Shown piece by piece: positions 21,988 through 27,552 of a stretch of DNA of 64,000 nucleotides. The first letter of the stretch is position 1. Each line of letters begins with the position of its first letter. A program made the position numbers and the translations under genes. The notes beneath the pieces are model-generated. The model saw nothing but the letters and a program-made list of their open reading frames with translations. It did not search any database and was not told the DNA's origin. Source of the stretch: Clostridiales bacterium (GTDB lineage: Bacteria; Bacillota; Clostridia; Christensenellales; Aristaeellaceae); the NCBI GenBank assembly GCA_015056125.1, contig SVGW01000002.1:1-64000 (forward strand), in the 5' to 3' direction.

Positions 21988-22056
21988 ATATCCCTATTGC
22001 TTTTCGGAAGGGGTGCAGGGGAAACTGCTTTTGGCTTCAAAAGCGGTTTCCCCTGC
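21988..22056. repeat. Intergenic hairpin family E, copy 4
   Basis: ctattgcttttcggaaggggt + gcaggggaaactgcttttggcttcaaaagcggtttcccctgc. Confidence 0.88.
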
Positions 22057-22066
22057 TATTTTTCAT

Positions 22067-23227
22067 TTACTTCCGCAGCTTCGCACGCATATGGGCAAGG
22101 CGGTTGAGAGCCTCCTGAAGGGTGGCCTCCTGCTTGGCAAAATGCAAGCGGATCAGGTGATTCACGGGCTCATTGAAGAAGCTGGAGCCGGGCACCGCGC
22201 CCACGCCCACCTTCTTTGCCAGATCCTCGCAGAAAAGAAGATCGCTTTCATAGCCGTATTCCGAAATATCCAGCAGCACATAATACGCGCCCTGGGGATC
22301 GGTGTGGACGATCTTCAGATCATCCAGGCCTTTGAGGAAAAGATTGCGCTTTTTCGTGTACACATCCTGAAGCGCTTTGTAATAATCATCCCCGAAATTG
22401 AGCCCGGTTACGGCTGCTTCCTGGAGGGGCGCAGCGGCGCCCACGGTGAGAAAATCATGCACCTTCCGGGCCACGTCAATAATCTCAGGGGAAGCGATGA
22501 TATAGCCCAGCCGCCAGCCGGTGATGGAATAGGTTTTGGAAAGGGAGGAGCAGGAAATGGTGCGCTCAAACATGCCGGGCAGCGTAGCAAAATACACGTG
22601 CTCATGGGGCGCATACACGATATGCTCGTACACTTCATCTGTGATCACATAGGTATCATATTTTTCCGCCAGATGGGCAATAAATTCCAGTTCTTTGCGG
22701 GTAAATACCTTACCGCAGGGATTGGAGGGATTGCACAGAATCAGGGCCTTGGGATTCTGGCGAAAGGCGGCCTCCAATTCATCAGGGTTGAAATTAAATT
22801 CCGGAGGATACAGGGGCACATAGATGGGCTGTGCCCCGGAAAGAATGGCATCCGCCCCATAGTTTTCATAGAAAGGAGAAAACACCACCACTTTGTCCCC
22901 GGGATCGGTGACAGTCATCATGGCGGCCATCATGGCTTCGGTGCTGCCGCAGGTAACCACGATCTGGGAAGCAGGATCGATGGAAATACCCATAAAGCGG
23001 CTCTGCTTTTGGGCCAGGGCCTCGCGGAAGTTCTGCGCGCCCCAGGTGATGGCATACTGATGGGGCAATTGGACGGTGTTGCTCAGGGCATCCAATATCT
23101 CCTTGGGCGGATCAAAATCCGGAAAGCCCTGGGAAAGATTAACCGCATGATACTGGAGGGATACCCGGGTCATGCGGCGGATCACGGAATCGGTAAAGGT
23201 AGCCGTGCGGCTGGAAAGCTTTTTCAT
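22067..23227 (-). CDS. PLP-dependent aminotransferase class I/II
   Basis: VNLSQGFPDFDPP, CGSTEAMMAAMM, NPSNPCGKVFT, SSLSKTYSITGWRLGY (PLP lysine). Confidence 0.9.
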   Translation of the reverse strand: MKKLSSRTATFTDSVIRRMTRVSLQYHAVNLSQGFPDFDPPKEILDALSNTVQLPHQYAITWGAQNFREALAQKQSRFMGISIDPASQIVVTCGSTEAMMAAMMTVTDPGDKVVVFSPFYENYGADAILSGAQPIYVPLYPPEFNFNPDELEAAFRQNPKALILCNPSNPCGKVFTRKELEFIAHLAEKYDTYVITDEVYEHIVYAPHEHVYFATLPGMFERTISCSSLSKTYSITGWRLGYIIASPEIIDVARKVHDFLTVGAAAPLQEAAVTGLNFGDDYYKALQDVYTKKRNLFLKGLDDLKIVHTDPQGAYYVLLDISEYGYESDLLFCEDLAKKVGVGAVPGSSFFNEPVNHLIRLHFAKQEATLQEALNRLAHMRAKLRK

Positions 23228-23236
23228 GGCGGAGCC

Positions 23237-24604
23237 TCACTTCAAATAAGAAATATGATCGTTGAGAATGTGCTTGGGATCCAGGGCCGCCTTCACGGCG
23301 CGCATGGCAAAGAGATTGTCTTCCGCAGTGTTTTTTAGGAAATAGGGGCGCTTGGCAATGCCCACTCCGTGCTCCCCGGAAGTGAGCCCGCCCAAGGCAT
23401 AGGCCTTGTCGTAAAGGGTGTTCATCACCGCGTGAAGATCCTTTTCCCAGGTTTCGTCATCTCGATCTTCCCGCATCACGCAAAGGTGCACGTTGCCATC
23501 CCCTGCGTGGCCGAAGGAGATCATCTTCACGCCGCTTTTTTCTTCCGTTTCATGCACGAAAGCGATAAATTCCGCCGTCTTGTCAATGGGCACCACCAGG
23601 TCCACAGGCTCCTGCTGGGAAACGGCCTCCACTGCTTTCACAAAGCAGCCCCGCACCCGCCAGATATCCTGAGCCAGGGCAGGATCGGAAAGGGGAATGA
23701 AATCAATGGCGCCGGAGGCTTCCGCCACAGCCTTCACCCGCTTCACACTGGCATCCACCTGATCCTGGAAGCCGTCAAAGGTGAGGAGGATATAGGCCTT
23801 GGCCTCTTTGCAGGGGAAGGAAATGCCGGTAAACTTTTCCCCCAATTCTACCACGCTGCGCTCAATAAATTCAATGGCCGTGGGGCCCACATTGGCCTTG
23901 ATAATGGCGTGAACGCTGCGGATGCCGGTTTTGAGATCGCCATAGGGCAACAGCACGGAAAGGGAGGTTTCAGGCTTGGGGATCAGCTTCAAAATGCACT
24001 TGGTAATCACGCCCAGGGTGCCCTCGGAGCCAATGAAGAGATGCTTCATGGAAAGGCCGCTGGCATCCTTCACGTTTTTCGTGCCCGCCTGAATCACGCG
24101 CCCATCCGCCAGCACCACTTCCAGGCCGCGCACATAATCCCGGGTGACGCCGTATTTCACTGCCCGCATGCCCCCGGCATTGGTGGCGATATTGCCCGCA
24201 ATGGTGGCCAGCTTTTCACCGGGATCGGGGGGATAGAAAAGGCCCAGAGCTTCCACCTGCTGCTGGAAATCCTGGAGCACCACCCCAGGCTCCACCGTGG
24301 CGGTGAAGGTTTCTTCATCGATGGAAAGCACATGATTCATCAAAGAAAAATCCAGCACGATGCCCTTTTCCCTTGGCACGGTGGAACCCACCAGATTGGT
24401 GCCGGCACCCCGGGGAGTGACGGACAACTGATGGGCATAGGCAAAACGCATCAAGGCAGACACTTCTTCCGTGGATACGGGAAACACCAGCGCCCCGGCC
24501 TCGCCCTTTAAGCGGCCCAGGGAATCGGAAAGATATTTTTCATCGATATTTTGAAGAACTACCCGATTTTCATCGGGGATCAATTCGTACAGTTTGTTCA
24601 GCAT
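23237..24604 (-). CDS. FAD-binding oxidoreductase, glycolate/lactate dehydrogenase (GlcD type)
   Basis: VTPRGAGTNLVGSTVPREKGIVLDFSLMN, PPDPGEKLATIAGNIATNAGGMRAVKYGVTRDYV, SFGHAGDGNVHL, GEHGVGIAKRPYF. Confidence 0.9.
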   Translation of the reverse strand: MLNKLYELIPDENRVVLQNIDEKYLSDSLGRLKGEAGALVFPVSTEEVSALMRFAYAHQLSVTPRGAGTNLVGSTVPREKGIVLDFSLMNHVLSIDEETFTATVEPGVVLQDFQQQVEALGLFYPPDPGEKLATIAGNIATNAGGMRAVKYGVTRDYVRGLEVVLADGRVIQAGTKNVKDASGLSMKHLFIGSEGTLGVITKCILKLIPKPETSLSVLLPYGDLKTGIRSVHAIIKANVGPTAIEFIERSVVELGEKFTGISFPCKEAKAYILLTFDGFQDQVDASVKRVKAVAEASGAIDFIPLSDPALAQDIWRVRGCFVKAVEAVSQQEPVDLVVPIDKTAEFIAFVHETEEKSGVKMISFGHAGDGNVHLCVMREDRDDETWEKDLHAVMNTLYDKAYALGGLTSGEHGVGIAKRPYFLKNTAEDNLFAMRAVKAALDPKHILNDHISYLK

Positions 24605-24653
24605 AAAACCTCCACGCTTCACGGGGACATTGCTATCTCGATGATTCACCATA

Positions 24654-24719
24654 CATCCCGAATCGGTTTTGGGAAGGGGCATGGGGAAACCGCTTTTGAC
24701 TCAAAAGCGGTTTCCCCAT
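24654..24719. repeat. Intergenic hairpin family E, copy 5
   Basis: catcccgaatcggttttgggaagggg + atggggaaaccgcttttgactcaaaagcggtttccccat. Confidence 0.9.
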
Positions 24720-24726
24720 ATATTGC

Positions 24727-25566
24727 TTATTCGGCCTTCACTTCTTCGGCAGCTTCAGCTTCCCATACCAGATGGAAGAAGCCCTTGAAGGTGGTGTTGG
24801 CCACTTCGCTGGTCACATCGGAGCAGAATACTTCGGCCACCCGCTTGTAAACGGGATTTTCGATATCCTGGGTGCGCACTGCAATCACGCAGATGAAGGA
24901 TTCATTGGAAAGATCAATGGTTTCATAGAAGATGGCGCTTTCGGGATCCACCCCATAGCTGGCGGCATAGTTACCGTTGATCACGGCGGCATCCACTTCG
25001 GTGAGGAACTGATAGGTCATGGCAGCGTTCACGGGCTCCAATTCCACCTTGGCGTCCACGATATGTTCAATATTGGGGGTGCCCTCGTATTCGGAAAGGG
25101 TGAGCAGGCCGGCATTGGCCAGCAGGATCAGAGCGCGGCCATAATTGGTAGCATCATTGGGCACCACCACGGTGAGCTTCTTGCCCGCATCGGCAGCTGC
25201 AACCAGGTCTTCAATGGTATCATAGGCAGCGGAATAAATATTCATGGTGATCACAAAGGTATCCGCCAGCACGGTGAGATCGTAATTATTGGTGGTGGTA
25301 TCGTTGTTGAAGTAGGCATGATGCTGGAACGCATTCATGCTGATGGAGCCATCGTTCAGGGCATTGTTGGGCAGAGCGAAATCGGAGAACTGCTCCAATT
25401 CCACAATGATATTTTCCTTGGCCAATTCTTCAATGGCGGGCTCCCAGAGGTCTTCATAGAAAGCACCGGTAACGCCGATGGTCACAGTGATCTTTTCTTC
25501 CGCCAGGGACAGGGTGGGAACCAAAGCCAGGGTTAGAGCCAGAATAAACGCAAATACCTTTTTCAT
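24727..25566 (-). CDS. metQ: Methionine ABC transporter substrate-binding protein (NlpA/MetQ family)
   Basis: MKKVFAFILALTLALVPTLSLAEEKITVTIGVTGAFYEDLWEPAIEEL...NNALNDGSISMNAFQHHAYF; linked to metI and metN. Confidence 0.88.
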   Translation of the reverse strand: MKKVFAFILALTLALVPTLSLAEEKITVTIGVTGAFYEDLWEPAIEELAKENIIVELEQFSDFALPNNALNDGSISMNAFQHHAYFNNDTTTNNYDLTVLADTFVITMNIYSAAYDTIEDLVAAADAGKKLTVVVPNDATNYGRALILLANAGLLTLSEYEGTPNIEHIVDAKVELEPVNAAMTYQFLTEVDAAVINGNYAASYGVDPESAIFYETIDLSNESFICVIAVRTQDIENPVYKRVAEVFCSDVTSEVANTTFKGFFHLVWEAEAAEEVKAE

Positions 25567-25588: not shown

Positions 25589-26266
25589 TTAATGCGTGGT
25601 TTTTTTAGCAATCAGGGTGCCAATCGCCTGGATAATCGTAACGATCACTACGATCACAATCACCGAAGCCCATACGATATCCATGCGGTTGTAGTTGTAG
25701 CCGTAGGTAATGGCGTAATCCCCCAGGCCGCCGGCCCCCACATAGCCCGCCATGGCGGTGAGGCCGATGAGGCTGATGAGGGTAATGGTGGCGCCCCGGG
25801 CGATGGCGGCGGCGCCTTCTTTCAGGTATACCCTGAAGATGATCCCCAAGGGGCTGACCCCCATGGACTTGGCCGCCTCGATGAGCCCGCCGTTTACCCC
25901 TGCCAAAGCGCTTTCCACCTGGCGGGAAAAGAAGGGAACGGAACCCACCACCAAAGGAACGATCACGCCCTTGATGCCGATCCGGGTGCCCATGATGAAT
26001 TTGGTAATATTCATCAGGAATGCAATCAGGATCACAAAGGGAATGGAGCGGAAAAGATTAATCAGCTTATCCAAGATCTGAAAAGCAATGGGACAATCCA
26101 TGATGCCGCCCTTTTTGGTAACGGTCAGCATCACCCCCAATACCAGGCCAAACACCAGCATCAGCGCGCCGGACCAGCCCGTCATGATCAATGTTTCCTC
26201 AATGCTTTCCAAGAATTTATCCGGCTTATCCATCACATGAGGAAACCAGCTTTCAAGAATTGCCAT
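25589..26266 (-). CDS. metI: Methionine ABC transporter permease MetI
   Basis: MAILESWFPHVMDKPDKFLESIEETLIMTGWSGALMLVFGL...LINLFRSIPFVILIAFL...AMAGYVGAGGLGDYAI. Confidence 0.92.
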   Translation of the reverse strand: MAILESWFPHVMDKPDKFLESIEETLIMTGWSGALMLVFGLVLGVMLTVTKKGGIMDCPIAFQILDKLINLFRSIPFVILIAFLMNITKFIMGTRIGIKGVIVPLVVGSVPFFSRQVESALAGVNGGLIEAAKSMGVSPLGIIFRVYLKEGAAAIARGATITLISLIGLTAMAGYVGAGGLGDYAITYGYNYNRMDIVWASVIVIVVIVTIIQAIGTLIAKKTTH

Positions 26267-27290
26267 GAGAAAGCACCTCCACATCCACGTTTCTATTCTT
26301 GAGATATTCGATGGCATCGGGAATTTTCTCCGTTTGCCCGGTAGCGATCACAATGAGCTCGCCCAGCAAATGATTGCCGATCCATTCGATATTGCCGAAG
26401 ATAATATTCATATCCACCCCGTATTCCCGGGATACGGTGGAAACCAGGGCCTCCGCCGCGCTGGTATCCAGATACTTGAGGCGGATGATCTGCTCCCCAG
26501 GGTTGAGCTTATTGAAAGAATCGTTTTCCGCCAGAAATTCCTGCACCCGGGAAAGATTGGAAGCGGTGTTAATAAAGGATTGGGTGATGGGCTTCTGAGG
26601 ATTGGCGAATACGGAGTATACCTCGCCTTCCTCCACCACTCTTCCCGCCTCCATCACGGCTACCCGCTGGCAAAGCTCCTTCACCACCTGCATCTGATGG
26701 GTAATCACCACGATGGTGATGCCCGTTTCGGCATTGAGCTTTTTCAAAAGCTTCAAAATGGAAGTGGTGGTCTGGGGGTCCAGAGCGCTGGTAGCTTCAT
26801 CGCAAAGGAGCACTTTGGGATCACTGGCCAGGGCCCGGGCGATGGCCACCCGCTGCTTTTGGCCCCCGGAAAGCTGGGAGGGATAGGTATCGGCCTTATC
26901 TTCCAATTCCACGAATTTGAGCAGCCCCCTGGCTTTTTCTAGGATAGCCTTGCGGCTCATGCCGGAATAGCGAAGAGGAAAGGCCACATTATCCAATACC
27001 GTGCGGGTAGCAAAAAGATTAAACTGCTGAAAGATCATGCCGATCTTTTTCCGCTCCTGATTGAGCCGGCGGCCTTTCAGGCGGGTCAGTTCCTGGCCGT
27101 CCACCGTAACTTTCCCGCCGGTGGGCTTTTCCAAGAGATTCATGCAGCGCACCAGGGTAGATTTGCCGGCCCCGGAGAAGCCCACGATGCCGTAAATTTC
27201 TCCTTTGTTGATATGCAGGCTCACATCATTTACTGCATGCACCTTGCTGGCCCCTTCAAAGGTTTTGCTCACATGGGATAGATCGATCAT
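26253..27290 (-). CDS. metN: Methionine ABC transporter ATP-binding protein MetN (with NIL domain)
   Basis: MIDLSHVSKTFEG...VNDVSLHINKGEIYGIVGFSGAGKSTLVRCMNLLEKPTGG; LSGGQKQRVAIARAL; C-terminal NIL-type domain. Confidence 0.93.
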   Translation of the reverse strand: MIDLSHVSKTFEGASKVHAVNDVSLHINKGEIYGIVGFSGAGKSTLVRCMNLLEKPTGGKVTVDGQELTRLKGRRLNQERKKIGMIFQQFNLFATRTVLDNVAFPLRYSGMSRKAILEKARGLLKFVELEDKADTYPSQLSGGQKQRVAIARALASDPKVLLCDEATSALDPQTTTSILKLLKKLNAETGITIVVITHQMQVVKELCQRVAVMEAGRVVEEGEVYSVFANPQKPITQSFINTASNLSRVQEFLAENDSFNKLNPGEQIIRLKYLDTSAAEALVSTVSREYGVDMNIIFGNIEWIGNHLLGELIVIATGQTEKIPDAIEYLKNRNVDVEVLSHGNS

Positions 27291-27315
27291 TTTATTGCTT
27301 CATCCTCTCATAAAG

Positions 27316-27349
27316 AAAAAGCAGGAAGCCCTTCTGCTTCCTGCTTTTT
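27316..27349 (-). terminator. Attenuator-type intrinsic terminator between Met-rich leader ORF and metN
   Basis: Minus strand AAAAAGCAGGAAGC-agaag-GGCTTCCTGCTTTTT, 14-bp stem ending in a U-tract, 22 nt after the leader stop and 26 nt before metN ATG. Confidence 0.88.
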
Positions 27350-27370
27350 GCCCCGATTTGCCTATGGCTA

Positions 27371-27478
27371 TTAAAACCGGGCGGAAGAGAAACGGCCATG
27401 AAAATACGCGCCAAAACGCATGCACATGCTGCACATGCACATCATCATAGCCATCATCATCGCTACGGAAAACGTCAT
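27371..27478 (-). CDS. Met/Cys-codon-rich leader peptide (35 aa), putative metNIQ attenuation leader
   Basis: Minus strand ggagg-N9-ATG; MTFSVAMMMAMMMCMCSMCMRFGAYFHGRFSSARF*. 10 Met and 3 Cys in the first 20 codons. Confidence 0.8.
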   Translation of the reverse strand: MTFSVAMMMAMMMCMCSMCMRFGAYFHGRFSSARF

Positions 27479-27523
27479 CACGGTGTTCCTCCCTTCCTCC
27501 AGTATACCTCTTAGGATGAAGTG

Positions 27524-27552
27524 ATTATAAACGGAGCAAGCGTATTTGTCAA
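27524..27552 (-). promoter_or_regulatory. Perfect consensus sigma-A promoter for leader-metNIQ
   Basis: Minus strand TTGACA (27552-27547) - 17 bp - TATAAT (27529-27524). Confidence 0.9.

Follow-up and report, generated by a model that had tools for sequence, protein, structure and literature searches.

What controls a methionine importer operon whose transcript begins with a short open reading frame (ORF) crowded with methionine codons? The question is raised by metNIQ in a 64,000-nucleotide stretch of DNA from a gut-type Clostridiales genome; the whole stretch is called hereafter the window. A reading made from the sequence alone had proposed a methionine attenuator of the trp/his/leu architecture. 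The proposal is supported by its parts, by its recurrence in relatives, by an in-frame bias of AUG codons and by competing RNA folds, and regulation is predicted from these.

Parts of the metNIQ leader

All elements lie on the minus strand. The promoter (27524–27552) is of the sigma-70 type, with TTGACA at 27552–27547, a 17-nt spacer and TATAAT at 27529–27524; direct reading gives a 12/12 consensus match, as had been claimed. The leader ribosome-binding site (RBS), GGAAGGGAGG (27488–27497), is seen in the sequence and in the MFE fold, and its GGGAGG occupies 27493–27488. The leader ORF, MTFSVAMMMAMMMCMCSMCMRFGAYFHGRFSSARF (27371–27478), starts with ATG at 27478, or alternatively with GTG at 27481, and runs for 35 codons to the TAA at 27373–27371. 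Besides the start Met, nine internal Met and three Cys are encoded, all of them in leader codons 7–20 (27419–27460), the putative control codons. Ten Met in all and three Cys is also what the sequence-only reading had counted. The intrinsic terminator (27312–27349) begins 21 nt after the leader stop and has a 14-bp stem (27349–27316), a 6-nt loop and a U-tract, so that its presence between leader ORF and metN is confirmed at base level. The 228-nt leader as a whole folds with z = −4.27 relative to dinucleotide shuffles.

The operon downstream comprises metN (26253–27290, ATG at 27290), encoding the importer ATPase, metI (25589–26266), encoding the permease, and metQ (24727–25566), encoding the methionine-binding lipoprotein. 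Their best NCBIfam matches are TIGR02314 (E 1.2e-117; 392.8 bits, under the curated cut-off of 499.7), NF008049 (E 5.7e-52) and NF008285 (E 1e-32), the latter two also under their curated cut-offs; the gene names therefore rest on homology and operon order. Directly 3' of metNIQ are genes for a GlcD-like FAD oxidase and then a methionine-aminotransferase-like enzyme (22067–24607, minus strand), which together could allow the salvage of methionine hydroxy analogue or of the corresponding keto acid. Two near-identical long palindromes of the GGGGAAACCGCTTTTGA...TCAAAAGCGGTTTCCCC type are found at 22015–22056 and at 24681–24719, the latter separating metQ from the next gene. They are terminators or a dispersed repeat.

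Riboswitches and T-boxes in the genome

Rfam searches of the window at gathering threshold matched no family, and scores in the leader were at chance level only. The SAM riboswitch (RF00162), the other Rfam SAM classes and the T-box covariance model (RF00230) had no match in the window leader; one SAM-SAH match (12.2 bits, E 4.6) lay on the opposite strand and is attributed to chance. The initial statement that no S-box, T-box or other riboswitch is evident in the leader is upheld, and with it falls the objection that a SAM riboswitch might cover this region.

Elsewhere in the genome, there is one SAM riboswitch match, upstream of metK, and there are 17 T-box matches at E ≤ 0.001. Both metN operons have Met leaders, that of the second operon being MRHFAMRMFMRVSFLPRFLCCAA. 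On sequence evidence, one genome appears to sense SAM at metK and Met-tRNA charging at its importers. Sister families have a T-box in front of metN: the match in L123 exceeds the gathering score, and those in L120 and L121 fall short of it but are clear by E-value. Inspection by eye places an AUG at the specifier of all three (GAACAUGGUC). The Met leader appears to replace the riboswitch or T-box expected at methionine importers in this group.

The window genome has a methionine-synthase-type S-methyl_trans domain. No PF01053 enzyme was found in it at E ≤ 1e-60, which, at 82% completeness, only hints at a reliance on imported methionine. In three other genomes (G007:C184, G011:C53, G036:C1), PF01053 genes of Met/Cys biosynthesis have a T-box match at a distance of 54–68 bp on their upstream side; biosynthesis there hence appears to be T-box controlled, and the importers in this genus to be of the leader-peptide type.

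Met-rich leaders recur upstream of methionine importers

metN loci were gathered from relatives, from contigs of named genomes and by extraction, and were scanned with a fixed definition of a Met-rich leader (12–45 codons, at least three internal Met, density of at least 0.13, RBS score of at least 4). Such ORFs were detected in 40 of 179 metN upstream regions, versus 0.6 expected from shuffles. A larger set gave 51 of 215 regions in the sense orientation, the other 164 having none, and 0 of 215 in antisense. Control genes in the same loci gave 8 of 602. Five of these eight cases are followed by a terminator, all leading into methionine importer operons; four of the five are metQ-first (L004, L005, L007, L219). 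In the fifth (L067:1155–2504), a CapA-like gene, identified by eye, overlaps the metN start and sits behind the Met-rich leader MKTQTWNNSKMDYMMCSMCIMCCGMPKMKYGQILFTVRISPDV and a terminator.

A terminator follows 33 of the 40 Met-rich ORFs that precede importer operons. The sequence-only reading had named a Met-rich peptide kept without a terminator, or away from met genes, as evidence against attenuation; what was observed is the reverse, the ORFs being nearly confined to methionine importer operons. Its main prediction was borne out many times over: relatives retain the Met run, the place of the stop and a terminator, and the remaining codons vary.

For the analyses of architecture and structure, a somewhat looser catalogue of 62 leaders was compiled, itself selected on Met content; one member (L082) is doubtful, and 60 distinct leaders were used in the structure tests. 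The median distance from leader stop to terminator is 22 nt. A promoter-like site matching the consensus at no fewer than 9 of 12 positions is present within 150 nt upstream of 57 of 62 leaders, compared with 11 of 62 in the antisense control, and the median distance from the −10 to the leader start is 40 nt.

According to the kinship tables, the catalogue comes mostly from eight families (f1, f3, f10, f14, f17, f19, f24 and f27) that belong to the same order as the window. Further leaders lie on contigs labelled Synergistaceae, Brachyspira, Oscillospiraceae, Ruminococcaceae, Clostridium sp. N3C, Agathobaculum and Succinivibrio, many source contigs being metagenome bins, so that single taxon labels may be wrong. 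In the wider class Clostridia, most top metN relatives had no Met leader, with one clear positive (L187) among 29 new loci. The actinobacterial metN among the loci fetched had no convincing Met leader, and no Met leader was found before 12 PF01053 enzymes. The pattern ATGATGNNNATGNNNATG, tried as a search tool on 60 genomes, gave mostly scattered matches, not placed in genes, and is of no use alone. A ZMP/ZTP riboswitch was noted near one metN relative, on the opposite strand (L019:1085–1168, minus).

The AUG run is selected as codons

The closest relative is G021, whose metN is 85% identical. Eight of the nine internal Met positions of the window leader are kept there, and A/E, M/Q and C/Y changes are found beside the kept Met. 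A more general measurement was possible with the orthologous leaders of the genus's second metN operon, called hereafter group B. Membership was decided by orthology of metN and by a common CGAATG element, not by Met content. In group B, AUG triplets are distributed over frames 0, 1 and 2 as 63, 4 and 2. The Met-selected catalogue gives 330, 13 and 12. The AUG run is selected as codons, given the frame bias in group B and the eight Met kept in G021.

Catalogue peptides have little in common beyond Met, which makes up 20.6% of their residues; they vary in sequence, length and C-terminus from one leader to the next. Cys accounts for 9.6%, and its codons number 157 in frame, roughly threefold the 44 and 50 of the other two frames. 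In four group B leaders (L015, L021, L023, L114) there are just one or two internal Met. These leaders retain the CGAAUG element, the leader hairpin and the antiterminator; possibly they work with a single control codon, or are decaying.

Competing structures in the leader RNA

The sequence-only reading had paired 27391–27383 with 27332–27341 as the antiterminator. This pairing is present in the MFE fold of the truncated transcript; as a description it was incomplete. The 9-bp simple duplex in the window leader alone scores no better than shuffles (p 0.82). A composite hairpin was put in its place. Its 5' strand, UUUCUCUUCC (27383–27392), lies in the last third of the leader ORF, and its 3' strand, GGAAGcAGAAG (27331–27341), overlaps the 5' arm and loop of the terminator. 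The two strands enclose a nested hairpin (27352–27381) that carries the leader stop codon in its loop. This composite is the MFE fold of a transcript ending at the terminator loop, and the terminator is favoured once its 3' arm has been made. The same composite is predicted in G021, where UCUCUUCCGCCC of the 5' strand is identical and the nested-hairpin bases are changed yet still paired (arms CCCGGUUU/AAAUCGGG in the window, CCCCGGUAUA/UAUACGGGG in G021). In the ribosome-free MFE fold of the window leader, UUUCUCUUCC (27392–27383) pairs instead with the leader RBS GGAAGGGAGG.

Sequestration of the terminator 5' arm in the window leader alone was likewise no better than in shuffles (p 0.29). 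Over the 60 distinct leaders, the mean was 0.64 when ribosomes were placed at the Met codons, 0.52 in shuffles and 0.29 with a ribosome at the stop codon. Geometry and folding thus agree with a ribosome that would mask the antiterminator at the stop and would leave it free at the control codons, although the value at the stop is partly trivial because less RNA remains to pair. The difference between stalled and shuffled leaders gave p = 4e-7, and the family tests of the antiterminator gave Fisher p of about 3e-10 and 4e-10; the leaders are related and not independent, so that all these pooled values overstate the evidence. Simple duplex scoring is significant for the set, though not for the window leader.

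In most group B sequences, the antiterminator extends from the last leader codons, across the stop, as far as the terminator 5' arm and loop. Together with the preceding leader hairpin, it has 83.6% of its cells paired, versus 35–50% when slid. Double-sided changes number 16, against 7.4 in shuffles, and only 2 of 500 shuffles were as high. A covariance model (R1) matched group B metN leaders and otherwise gave only near-threshold hits. The predicted antiterminator is convincing as a composite hairpin common to the window and G021 and as a family-wide property.

Alternative explanations

The same parts could be read otherwise. The peptide itself might be the product, a Met/Cys-rich metal-binding or otherwise functional microprotein, the terminator merely tuning its ratio to the importer. 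Nine internal Met and three Cys in the window peptide, and the in-frame excess of Cys codons, would suit such a role. A functional protein is hard to reconcile, however, with a sequence, length and C-terminus that vary from leader to leader, with last codons that overlap a conserved RNA structure, and with a near-confinement to importer operons followed by terminators. We regard it as very improbable. It is just as hard to credit that the ORF is incidental to a leader RNA which itself recognises methionine, SAM or a protein, as a riboswitch or protein-binding attenuator. The conserved RNA structure of group B, some members of which have few Met codons, is what this explanation has to offer; yet no Rfam family matched the leaders tested, nothing is common beyond group B except the in-frame AUG run and the architecture, and within group B itself the frame bias is strong.

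Closer to the attenuator is a dual device that answers Cys-tRNA as much as Met-tRNA. Cys codons are abundant and enriched in frame in the catalogue, and a Streptomyces lividans leader reads CMCRRMC (PMC8079986). Met is nevertheless the constant feature, the control regions of L038, L220, L245 and L254 have one Cys or none, and some Cys codons arise from UGC/GCA self-complementarity. An equal role for Cys thus seems rather unlikely. With very high probability, the window leader would be a methionine-specific, ribosome-mediated transcription attenuator that reads the supply of charged elongator Met-tRNA. Its parts, its recurrence upstream of methionine importers, the in-frame selection of AUG and the competing folds are computed directly; from them we infer the stalling, its cause and the resulting change in metNIQ transcription.

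Proposed mechanism

Under the attenuator model, the metNIQ transcript would first encode the short peptide with its dense AUG run. When Met-tRNA is plentiful, the leading ribosome would reach the stop codon and cover the antiterminator segment and the nested hairpin; the terminator would then fold and RNA polymerase stop after about 200 nt. A shortage of Met-tRNA would instead stall the ribosome on the AUG run, and UUUCUCUUCC together with the nested hairpin would capture the terminator 5' arm, so that transcription proceeds into metNIQ. If no ribosome loads, UUUCUCUUCC would pair with the leader RBS, and termination is the predicted default for the window leader.

Methionine starvation should also cut initiation, and termination is predicted for the window leader when untranslated; the response could therefore be a narrow one, with induction expected over an intermediate range of methionine limitation. 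Group B leaders, for which read-through is predicted when untranslated, may need fewer AUGs. It is conceivable, though we hold it as a tentative idea only, that Clostridia have a widespread family of attenuators reading Met (perhaps also Cys) tRNA charging and built around this starvation-initiation problem, with default-terminating leaders that carry long AUG runs and default read-through leaders that carry one or two. Long runs would let depletion of elongator Met-tRNA be sensed before initiation fails; read-through leaders would manage with one or two AUGs as failed initiation also switches the importer on. The trend between AUG number and untranslated default fits this idea, but is weak (Spearman −0.27, p 0.036, uncorrected for relatedness).

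Significance and comparison with known systems

Methionine would thereby be added to the amino acids for which leader-peptide attenuators are well supported, and such attenuators would be placed in Firmicutes genomes that also have T-boxes and a SAM riboswitch. They make testable how a ribosome reports a shortage of methionine without losing its own initiation.

The classical amino-acid attenuators are the trpL, hisL, leuL, ilvL and thrL leaders of Proteobacteria. The window leader resembles them in having its own promoter, a short RBS-preceded ORF with repeated cognate codons, a cognate operon downstream and, as predicted, a mutually exclusive antiterminator and terminator. It differs in its codon, AUG, whose amino acid is also the first of every protein, in its host, a member of Clostridia, and in its target, an importer. 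Furthermore, the final part of its ORF includes the antiterminator 5' strand, and a nested hairpin holds the stop codon.

The sequence-only reading had called a methionine attenuator unusual and possibly undescribed. Undescribed is too strong, because metL (SLIV_29928), located before metNIQ of S. lividans TK24, is annotated as a methionine-dependent attenuator (PMC8079986). For Firmicutes, no report of Met leader-peptide attenuation was found in the literature searched, most subscription journals being outside the search. Compared by description alone, metL and the present leaders share a short ORF with Met and Cys codons directly before metNIQ. In contrast to the window leader, with its own RBS and strong terminator, metL is leaderless and known from a single genome; it ends in CMCRRMCAF, with two internal Met in CMCRRMC, and its authors recognised no Rho-independent terminator (PMC8079986). 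A study of leaders in Actinobacteria found Cys, Trp and Leu elements and no Met element (PMC1262725). Close to their stop, its Cys-codon leaders likewise carry a stretch of codons for a sulfur amino acid, but they precede Cys operons and no terminator was found (PMC1262725).

Within Firmicutes, attenuation by histidine leader peptides has been predicted before hisZ/hisS* (PMC2965389). There too a leader peptide is predicted to act in place of a T-box, although the amino acid is histidine and the genes are related to tRNA synthetases. The T-box leaders at metN in the sister families precede the same gene, and their expected input is also tRNA charging; they differ in that the tRNA binds the RNA directly, without a leader ORF. 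Sister families with a T-box at metN constitute a natural experiment in the replacement of one tRNA-charging device by another.
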